From a virus, in the IMG/VR virus record IMGVR_UViG_3300045253_000053, positions 1-23,063 of that record: a stretch of 23,063 nt of DNA; one strand, given 5' to 3'. Position 1 is the stretch's first letter. Each line of letters starts with the position of its first letter. Below the pieces are notes generated by a model. It worked only from the letters and a program-made list of their open reading frames with translations. It made no database searches and was not told where the DNA came from. The translations under genes and the position numbers were made by a program. Shown here one piece after another: positions 70-1,869 of the stretch.

Positions 70-339
70 AAAGTGGCACTGATCCGTAACCCCAAAACAT
101 GCATCAACTAACGTTGCTGATTTGATAAGTTAGTAAGTGCTTACATTAAATCAATGCTGCACTGCACAACAGCCAAAAGGCCATTATTCGCTATTCCCGA
201 TACGATACAACTTGTTCTAAGTCATTGATTATAAAGGATGTTGCAGTGCAATATTCGCATAACTGTTATTATGTAAAATGGCGAAAATGTGTGAAAATCC
301 CGGATTAGTTATCAAAATATAAACTCTGGGGGCCACCCT

Positions 340-366
340 CCCCCGGACGCCGGGGTTGTGATTTTT
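340..366 (+). terminator. Terminator-like hairpin, possibly an attenuator
   Basis: CCCCGG (341-346) and CCGGGG (350-355) form a 6-bp GC-only stem with the loop ACG. It is followed by TTGTGATTTTTG, a T-rich tail. This resembles an intrinsic terminator that would block + strand read-through into the methyltransferase. A competing stem, GGGGG (328-332) with CCCCC (340-344), would use the same C-run and prevent the terminator stem. Termination is likely from the shape; regulation by the competing stem is speculative. Confidence 0.5.
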
Positions 367-405
367 GTAGACCACTTTACCGATCCGCGTACCAAAAAAC
401 GGCTC

Positions 406-466
406 TCCGGGATAACTGGTGTAAATGATTGTCTCATGGTATTCTCTAAATCCGGAATAAGTGGTG
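406..466 (+). promoter_or_regulatory. Degenerate 16-bp direct repeat upstream of the methyltransferase
   Basis: TCCGGGATAACTGGTG at 406-421 and TCCGGAATAAGTGGTG at 451-466 match at 14 of 16 positions. The second copy ends 20 bases before the methyltransferase start. Two copies at this distance could be operator sites for an autoregulating protein, for example the zinc-ribbon/HTH protein two genes on or the methyltransferase itself. No binding evidence exists, and a chance repeat is possible. Confidence 0.3.
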
Positions 467-486
467 GAATCTGGTAAAGGGGAAAC

Positions 487-1212
487 ATGAATGAGCTGGC
501 TCTTTTCGCAGGCGCTGCTGGAGGTGTACTCGGCGGAAAACTCCTTGGATGGAACACCCGCTGCGCAGTTGAACGTGATGCCTACGCCGCACAAGTTCTG
601 GTGCAACGGCAAAACGATGGATGCCTCAGCCCTTTCCCGATTTGGTCTGACATTACAAGTTTTGACGGACGACCTTGGAACGGGCATATTGACGTGGTAT
701 CTGCGGGGTTCCCCTGCCAGGGCATCAGTTCGGCCGGCAAGGGCGCCGGGCTCGATGACGAGCGCAGCGGACTGTGGAGTCAGGGCGCTCGGGTCATTCA
801 CGAGGTTGAACCGGGAAGAGTCCTCTTGGAAAACAGCCCAATGCTCACTTCTCGGGGGCTCGGACGAGTTCTTGCAGACCTGGCCGCGATGGGGTTCGAT
901 GCGGAATGGGGAGTGCTGGGAGCGGCCGGTATCGGCGCCCCTCATCTCCGAGACCGAATCTGGATACTTGCTACCCACCCCGAGCGGGTGCCGGAGCGGA
1001 AAGAACCATGTCGTCGGCCGGCTGGACGAATGGGGCGGCAGCAGCAACCCGTGGCGTGGTGGAAACCCAATTGGGAAGACGAGCTCGCCCGCCTTCGAGG
1101 AATGGGTAATGGGCTGGCCAGAGCAGTGGACCGCACTGATGCCATTAGAAACGGGCAAGTTCCAGGAGTGGTTAAAGTTGCATGGCAGACACTCTGCCGG
1201 GATAATGATTGA
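487..1212 (+). CDS. C5-cytosine DNA methyltransferase
   Basis: This is a 241-residue enzyme of the Dcm/M.HhaI class, which transfers a methyl group from S-adenosylmethionine to cytosine C5. Visible motifs in order are motif I LFAGAAGG (6-13), motif IV GFPCQ with catalytic Cys77 (74-78), motif VI ENSP (115-118), motif VIII RDR (155-157) and motif X RNGQVP (221-226). The target-recognition region between motifs VIII and X is short, about 50 residues. Several residues differ from the usual pattern: Ala11 in the glycine loop, Leu154 where Gln is usual, and Arg221 where Gly precedes Asn in motif X. ATG 487 follows AAAGGGG by four bases. The stop abuts the ATG at 1213. The enzyme may protect phage DNA from host restriction. 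It may be active or partly decayed. Confidence 0.85.
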   Translation: MNELALFAGAAGGVLGGKLLGWNTRCAVERDAYAAQVLVQRQNDGCLSPFPIWSDITSFDGRPWNGHIDVVSAGFPCQGISSAGKGAGLDDERSGLWSQGARVIHEVEPGRVLLENSPMLTSRGLGRVLADLAAMGFDAEWGVLGAAGIGAPHLRDRIWILATHPERVPERKEPCRRPAGRMGRQQQPVAWWKPNWEDELARLRGMGNGLARAVDRTDAIRNGQVPGVVKVAWQTLCRDND

Positions 1213-1216
1213 ATGA
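491..1216 (+). CDS. Overprinted 241-residue ORF inside the methyltransferase, Trp-rich, function unknown
   Basis: This frame is shifted +1 relative to the methyltransferase and covers it almost exactly: it starts four bases later and ends four bases later, and both products have 241 residues. Its ATG is eight bases after the GGGG of the shared ribosome binding site, a better spacing than the four bases for ATG 487. Its TGA overlaps the next gene as ATGA, the style used by many genes in this window. The product is rich in Trp and Ser, with segments such as NVMPTPHKFW (28-37), SSWKTAQCSLLGG (110-122) and EEWVMGWPEQWT near the C-terminus. From memory, proteins starting MSWLF with these segments are listed as hypothetical in other phages. 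I cannot check whether those are real products or shadow calls. No domain or function is recognised. Confidence 0.45.
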   Translation: MSWLFSQALLEVYSAENSLDGTPAAQLNVMPTPHKFWCNGKTMDASALSRFGLTLQVLTDDLGTGILTWYLRGSPARASVRPARAPGSMTSAADCGVRALGSFTRLNREESSWKTAQCSLLGGSDEFLQTWPRWGSMRNGECWERPVSAPLISETESGYLLPTPSGCRSGKNHVVGRLDEWGGSSNPWRGGNPIGKTSSPAFEEWVMGWPEQWTALMPLETGKFQEWLKLHGRHSAGIMIE

Positions 1217-1869
1217 CCGACATTCTGCAACTCCCCGGCTGGGCCGTGTCCAGCACCATTGACGATGGCAAGCGTCTCGTCATTACAGCCCAGTACGCCA
1301 AGCAGCCCGACTCCTGCCAGTTGTGCGGGCTGGTTGGCGCCCTGTACAAGCATGGCCCTCGGTCTCTGACCATCCTGGATAGCCCGGTCCGTGGCAGGCC
1401 GTCCTGCATCGAGGCGCGGGTACAGCGGTACAAGTGCAGGGACTGCAATGGCACCTTCCTGCAGCCTCTGGAGGGCATCGACACGGAGCATAGGATGACC
1501 GAGCGGTGCCTGGCCTACATCCAGCAGCAATCCCTGCGGGACACCTTCCAGCGGGTCTCTGAGCACCTTGGCTGTGACGAGAAGACCGTCCGGAACGTCG
1601 CCAACGACTACATCGACAAGTTCCACGTCGTCAAGAAGGCCAATGAGAGCGTCGAGCGTACCTGCATCCGCCTGGGCAAGGACCAGAAGGCGGCCGTCCG
1701 TAAGGGCTGGATGCGCAGCAAGGCCCTGCTCCGGATGCGCTACATGGGCAACGGATACGTAAAAAGTGTGTCGCAGGACAGTGTCCCGTGTACCTTTGAC
1801 AGGGGGGCGTCAAACCCTGGGTACGCGTCGTTCGAGGGAATCCTGATCGACAACACGCAGTTAAGCTAA
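1213..1869 (+). CDS. ISL3-transposase-like zinc-ribbon/HTH protein, possible small terminase
   Basis: The first ~140 of 218 residues resemble the N-terminal DNA-binding half of ISL3-family transposases. There is a four-Cys zinc ribbon (C35-x2-C38 and C75-x2-C78), a helical stretch with RMTERCLAYI (94-103), and a helix-turn-helix around 108-135 (RVSEHLGCDEKTVRNVA). The catalytic DDE domain, which usually starts with an Asp in a G-x-D-E-T type motif, is absent. It is replaced by a basic and then Gly/Ser-containing tail of about 78 residues. The gene sits directly before the large terminase, overlapping it by one base (TAATG), which is the usual small-terminase position. I infer a DNA-binding role in packaging or regulation. 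The alternative is a remnant of an insertion sequence, but the intact frame and tight coupling argue against that. Confidence 0.7.
   Translation: MTDILQLPGWAVSSTIDDGKRLVITAQYAKQPDSCQLCGLVGALYKHGPRSLTILDSPVRGRPSCIEARVQRYKCRDCNGTFLQPLEGIDTEHRMTERCLAYIQQQSLRDTFQRVSEHLGCDEKTVRNVANDYIDKFHVVKKANESVERTCIRLGKDQKAAVRKGWMRSKALLRMRYMGNGYVKSVSQDSVPCTFDRGASNPGYASFEGILIDNTQLS

Follow-up and report, generated by a model that had tools for sequence, protein, structure and literature searches.

A candidate split C5-cytosine DNA methyltransferase of phages with both subunits in overlapping reading frames of the same DNA

Positions 487-1216 of an IMG/VR virus record, analysed over its 23,063 bases (the window), in all likelihood encode both subunits of a split C5-cytosine DNA methyltransferase, divided like M.EcoHK31I, with the second subunit (beta) spanning all of the first (alpha). 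The overprinted beta frame is a real gene and purifying selection acts on both frames along the whole overlap. Judging by sequence matches, the pair is carried by hundreds of phages and bacteria. The two proteins are very probably halves of one enzyme, the first for catalysis and the second for recognition of DNA; the motifs and relatives of beta make it very probable that recognition and motif IX come from this subunit.

Two genes in one stretch of DNA

The sequence-only reading had described two frames of equal length, offset by four bases at both ends and served by one ribosome-binding site, and this geometry is confirmed: alpha at 487-1212 and beta, in the +1 frame, at 491-1216 comprise 241 codons each on the plus strand, downstream of a purine-rich AAAGGGG at about 476-482. 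The start junction ATGAATGA (487-494, +) combines the alpha ATG, a TGA in the beta frame and the beta ATG. In 81 relatives with a Shine-Dalgarno (SD) core of at least 4 nt, the aligned distance from core to start has a median of 4 nt for alpha and 8 nt for beta, in agreement with the better spacing claimed earlier for the second ATG; the core of the window itself scores only 3 nt. Among 116 loci the beta start codon is ATG in 94 and GTG in 6, and TGA or TAA stands directly ahead of it in 97. Residue 2 of alpha is Asn in 94 loci and is encoded by AAT in 94/94, never by AAC, the beta ATG thereby being kept; in six other alphas this residue is Arg, encoded by CGT, which gives a beta GTG. At the 3' junction, TGAATGA, the alpha stop (1210-1212) is followed by the ATG of the next gene at 1213 and the beta stop at 1214-1216, the ATGA ending that had been pointed out.

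The pair directly precedes an ISL3-like DNA-binding gene and then the large terminase gene. The former (1213-1869, +) encodes a 218-residue protein with an ISL3-transposase zinc ribbon and helix-turn-helix (PF14690, PF13542) and only a fragment of the DDE domain, possibly the domesticated DNA-binding part of a transposase; it adjoins the large terminase gene at the position expected of a small terminase. The non-coding start of the record carries a perfect 18-bp inverted repeat with a 16-nt spacer (18-69). An antisense open frame of 465 codons across the same genes (229-1626, minus strand) was rejected, as only 4% of relatives are stop-free in that phase.

Using beta as a tblastn query, 35 GenBank phage records (15 covering at least 80% of the query), 411 IMG/VR stretches and 97 stretches in bacterial genomes were detected, the last including Proteobacteria, Verrucomicrobia, Lentisphaeria, Omnitrophota, Anaerolineales and Geothrix. 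The peptide segments that the sequence-only reading named as shared with phage proteins do recur, in these phage records and IMG/VR stretches. Full-length matches start 4 nt past the alpha start in nearly every case. In Microcystis phage Mel-JY01 (L007, 1-2366) the pair lies one gene downstream of an S-adenosylmethionine synthase gene.

The beta frame extends over 200 codons or more in 111 of the 116 distinct loci, rather than being scattered with stops, whereas a stop-free +1 frame is seen in 0.4% of neighbouring genes (n = 250, each of at least 200 codons), in which stops per 240 codons number 9.7 observed and 9.7 expected. Synonymous permutation of the window alpha introduced a mean of 2.9 stops into the beta frame and none in 2.5% of permutations; the window case by itself is therefore only mildly unusual, and the strength of the argument comes from the relatives. 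Frame +2 showed no stop avoidance (mean 14.1 stops versus 12.4 in the permuted null). Beta is interrupted at codon 88 in L016 and L101 and near the N-terminus in the Stenotrophomonas phages L008 and L012, beside an intact alpha in each; these cases may reflect decay, errors of sequencing or a beta that starts further on.

As many loci had been found with beta as the query, alpha-seeded searches were added as a bias control. A +1 beta overlapped alpha in 222 of 225 loci with an alpha ORF, by at least 450 nt in 215 (A2, 76/76; P0001, 44/44; Bacteroides-phage alpha, 43/45; Podoviridae alpha, 59/60; some contigs recur between these sets). Since alpha motifs can force a shadow match in the second frame, alpha codons were permuted synonymously, and beta-HMM matches in the alpha-seeded loci were accepted only after these controls. 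Median scores for real and permuted alphas were 340 versus 68, 368 versus 64, 74 versus 7 and 125 versus 18 bits.

Selection in both frames, which had been proposed as a check, was assessed by sorting isolated substitutions in the first 165 codons of 75 related pairs according to their effect in each frame, with 71 pairs of neighbouring genes as a control in the same site classes. Doubly silent changes amounted to 286/1,074 (0.266) and changes silent in alpha only to 3,410/37,464 (0.091), giving a dSN/dSS of 0.34 as compared with 1.24 (0.101/0.082) in neighbouring genes; because of relatedness among the pairs, in which any one sequence may appear up to two times, these figures are rates and not tests on independent events. 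Along the gene the ratio was 0.24 (codons 2-60), 0.46 (61-110), 0.30 (111-165) and 0.31 (beyond). Alpha-silent changes creating a beta stop numbered 0/2,419, against 268/3,038 (8.8%) in the neighbouring-gene control. The second frame is therefore under purifying selection beyond that on the first. Past motif VIII, the rate per opportunity was 0.11 for changes that alter alpha and are silent in beta and 0.010 for those altering both; the balance flips here, so that the region expected to hold the target-recognition domain (TRD) is written mainly for beta. A comparison of raw frame-2 identity with a synonymous-permutation null failed to discriminate, as frame 3 rises too, and was dropped in favour of the site-class test with its neighbouring-gene controls; codon-position proportions gave a modest signal only. 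Openness, dual-frame selection and permutation controls all favour two genes, supporting the earlier suggestion of a long-lived overprinted pair.

Proposed division of the methyltransferase between alpha and beta

Alpha has the features of the catalytic subunit of a C5-cytosine DNA methyltransferase. It matched PF00145 (4e-30, confined to residues 4-168), phrog_363 (5e-54) and, by profile, M.HhaI (7e-21). The PF00145-type motifs follow one another in order on the plus strand: motif I, LFAGAAGG (502-525, placed by invariant A2 columns and the PF00145 alignment); the catalytic motif IV, GFPCQ (706-720; G74, F75, P76 and C77 invariant in A2); motif VI, ENSP (829-840; E115, N116 and S117 invariant); motif VIII, RDRIWIL (949-969; R155, R157 and W159 invariant); and motif X, RNGQVPGVV (1147-1173; Q224 invariant, N222, G223, V225 and P226 conserved at 90% or more). 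The methyltransferase motifs I-VIII and X thus fall in the first frame, as had been read from the sequence. In the AlphaFold2 (AF2) model of alpha, pLDDT blocks range from about 79 to 98 for residues 1-170 and from about 38 to 50 for residues 171-220, and Foldseek aligned 170 columns, the catalytic domain, to M.HhaI (327 residues) and M.HaeIII. Neither a folded TRD nor motif IX was recognised in the alpha polypeptide: the Pfam match ends at residue 168, residues 171-230 are modelled with low confidence and mostly unstructured, the small domain is absent from the model, and no IX-like segment was seen in frame 0.

Beta belongs to PHROG_1008, a family named DNA methyltransferase, by HMM match (P0002, 2.3e-17), the best stretch being residues 67-167 in its N-terminal half. 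The best-conserved part of the N-terminal region is the WPRWGSMRNG block (881-910, +; P132, W134, G135, M137 and G140 in A1), which is also covered by the phrog_1008 match. LPTP (971-982, +), conserved in A1 and A4 columns and in actinophage beta genes, marks the start of the module region, presumed to serve recognition; the window has one module and longer relatives have several. A motif-IX-like segment, SPAFEEWVMGWPEQWTAL, follows at 1085-1138 (+), with M207 invariant in A1 and P200, E204, P210 and W213 conserved at 90% or more. Two short families of unassigned function in PHROG, 26627 and 35493, match this motif-IX-like C-terminus (window 1073-1186, +) and are probably beta fragments called as separate genes.

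Searches of beta against Pfam, NCBIfam and PDB sequences returned nothing useful, that is, no Pfam family and no solved structure. A profile of the actinophage betas likewise retrieved no C5-methyltransferase from the PDB by sequence search, and the assignment of motif IX consequently rests on position, spacing and pattern: the beta segment aligns with the in-frame IX position of actinophage enzymes, and the canonical IX of solved enzymes was unmatched by sequence search. For beta, AF2 gave a poor model (pLDDT 57, pTM 0.30) that lends no fold support to a TRD; such a model could reflect folding only on the partner, but it is uninformative. A structure search with it was dropped, the model being too weak.

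The identity of the C-terminal half is indicated by actinophage genes outside the overlap that match the C-terminal half of the phrog_1008 profile. In Orcanus, gp40 (alpha) ends past motif VIII and gp41 (beta) is a separate, non-overlapping gene with PTP modules, FTEWMMGQPEGWIT and GNGVV. The two genes overlap, as annotated, by 23 nt in Peaches, 32 in RemusLoopin, 179 in Artemis2UCLA and 209 in Ryadel, and Fancypants gp73 is a 408-residue fusion with modules, EWMMGWP and GNGVVP all in the alpha frame. The A4 profile of long betas aligned to the actinophage genes with hhalign (97%, E 1.2e-10) over the modules and the EWLMGWPIGW segment, and the shorter beta profile A1 over the WPRWG-to-PTP region only (97%, 4e-11). 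The EWLMGWPIGW segment follows the recognition region and precedes motif X, which is where a monomeric enzyme has its motif IX. By these profile alignments, the C-terminal half of beta is homologous to actinophage "DNA methylase" genes with presumed recognition modules and motifs IX and X. In three loci (L126, L142 and L143) motif X lies in the beta frame instead of the alpha frame. Long relatives with several WPTPTA-type modules were also observed (L105, L107, L119, L122-L125 and L140). Some of these modules, e.g. GGRVTPRKGREGGTLIEAVS, recur in otherwise divergent phages, and both frames stay open across the insertions, which suggests exchange of recognition modules under double constraint.

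In the enzyme that we propose, alpha (frame 0), with motifs I-VIII and the helix of motif X, would bind SAM and provide the catalytic cysteine of PCQ. Beta (+1) would consist of an N-terminal part lying over the DNA of alpha motifs I-VIII, followed by PTP-type modules and the motif-IX-like segment. With its start 4 nt downstream of that of alpha and the ribosome-binding site in common, beta would share initiation with alpha, which may lead to roughly balanced synthesis. It would contribute the target-recognition domain and motif IX, dock on alpha and complete the enzyme, so that neither half is expected to methylate DNA alone. What we infer of this enzyme comprises a physical heterodimer, an activity that needs both halves, its target sequence and its biological role. 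As with orphan phage methyltransferases in general, the likely role is protection of phage DNA, and the phage probably uses the enzyme as a shield against host restriction.

Known systems and alternative explanations

The small subunit of M.EcoHK31I is also read from another frame inside the large-subunit gene. Its larger subunit has motifs I-VIII and X, whereas motif IX is present only in the smaller polypeptide, and the predicted TRD was placed in the large subunit (PMC3404938). Alpha resembles this large subunit in having I-VIII and X and lacking IX, a likeness that lies in the described division of motifs of M.EcoHK31I (YGGCCR). Unlike in M.EcoHK31I, constraint beyond motif VIII falls on beta here, which points to a TRD in that subunit, and the beta gene covers the whole of alpha beginning 4 nt past its start. 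M.AquI is split in the variable region between VIII and IX, with the recognition region at the junction, and its small subunit has motifs IX and X (PMC3404938). The present pair would likewise be split there, with the recognition region at the junction as in M.AquI (CYCGRG); in the window, however, motif X stays in alpha, and a layout like that of M.AquI is seen in L126, L142, L143 and the actinophage pairs. These pairs (Orcanus gp40/41, Peaches gp77/76, Artemis2UCLA gp90/89 and Ryadel gp8/7) contain beta homologues by profile and modules, partnered with a motif I-VIII alpha, but their genes are in tandem or overlap by at most 209 nt as annotated, and both IX and X lie in beta. An HNH endonuclease gene read out of frame within a phage methylase gene, as in ShiLan (PMC11855218), is another hidden ORF of this kind; that case involves an inserted homing element with an HNH nuclease, whereas here the second frame spans the catalytic gene. 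A hidden HNH gene of this type was ruled out, there being no insertion and no HNH match. We did not find a published description of the overlap in phages in the open-access literature.

Among the alternatives to a split enzyme, the one that deserves most attention, though we regard it as unlikely, is that beta is a real protein with a function of its own outside the catalytic complex, such as an anti-restriction factor or a regulator of the methyltransferase. In its favour, relatives of its N-terminal half were not found beyond such loci and beta has no Pfam or PDB match; the C-terminal half, however, is homologous to parts of actinophage methyltransferases and is fused to the catalytic domain in Fancypants, alpha is without what beta appears to carry, and motif X switches frame in some loci. 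A ribosomal shift from the alpha into the beta frame, producing one long enzyme and leaving the beta start unused, would join alpha motifs I-VIII to the beta modules and IX in the normal motif order and would have a counterpart in the fused form of related actinophages. It is nevertheless very improbable, because beta codons 2-60, ahead of any useful shift point, are strongly selected, the start codon is conserved with an upstream in-frame stop and good SD spacing, and motif X in alpha would be lost from the shifted product.

That beta is not made at all, its openness and similarity being forced by the alpha protein and codon bias, was the alternative already raised in the sequence-only reading. 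Such a component does exist: part of the N-terminal similarity of beta is forced by conserved alpha motifs and counts against our reading, as in close relatives even permuted alphas hit the beta HMM, with a median of 68 bits, WPRWGSMRNG shares bases with alpha LAAMGFDAEW, and the window gene stays open in some permutations. As the whole explanation it fails and merits very little credence, since permutation lowers the scores about five- to tenfold (from a median of 340 bits to the 68), the dSN/dSS and the absence of alpha-silent beta stops set the overlap apart from control genes, AAT is invariant where residue 2 is Asn, and beta genes also occur outside the overlap, in tandem and in fused form. 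The least probable account is that an RNA or DNA signal inside the gene, and not a protein, is conserved. Synonymous sites of alpha are indeed unusually conserved; yet beta-silent changes are tolerated while beta-changing and stop-making ones are not, and the constraint on beta codons holds from end to end of the gene, large in-frame insertions included.

Annotation and significance of the overlapping pair

Ten phage records were examined for their annotation, and both frames were annotated in none of them, alpha alone in seven and beta alone, as a hypothetical protein, in three. The three records with beta only miss the methyltransferase, and on this reading many records annotate half an enzyme. 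Cloning of alpha alone in methylation screens would lead to false negatives if the enzyme is a heterodimer as proposed. Extending the reading beyond the window, we consider it somewhat probable that a widespread class of C5-methyltransferases of phages and bacteria, at present annotated as short lone enzymes, consists of obligate heterodimers, with one DNA segment encoding the catalytic and the recognition subunit in different frames. In that case dsDNA phages would have, in this pair, a long same-strand overlap that is conserved very widely and whose two products are parts of one enzyme. The arrangement may have originated from tandem genes that came to overlap more and more, with recognition modules being inserted or exchanged under the constraint of two frames. 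Tandem genes, partial overlaps, full overlaps and fusions would together provide a natural series for the evolution of overprinting.
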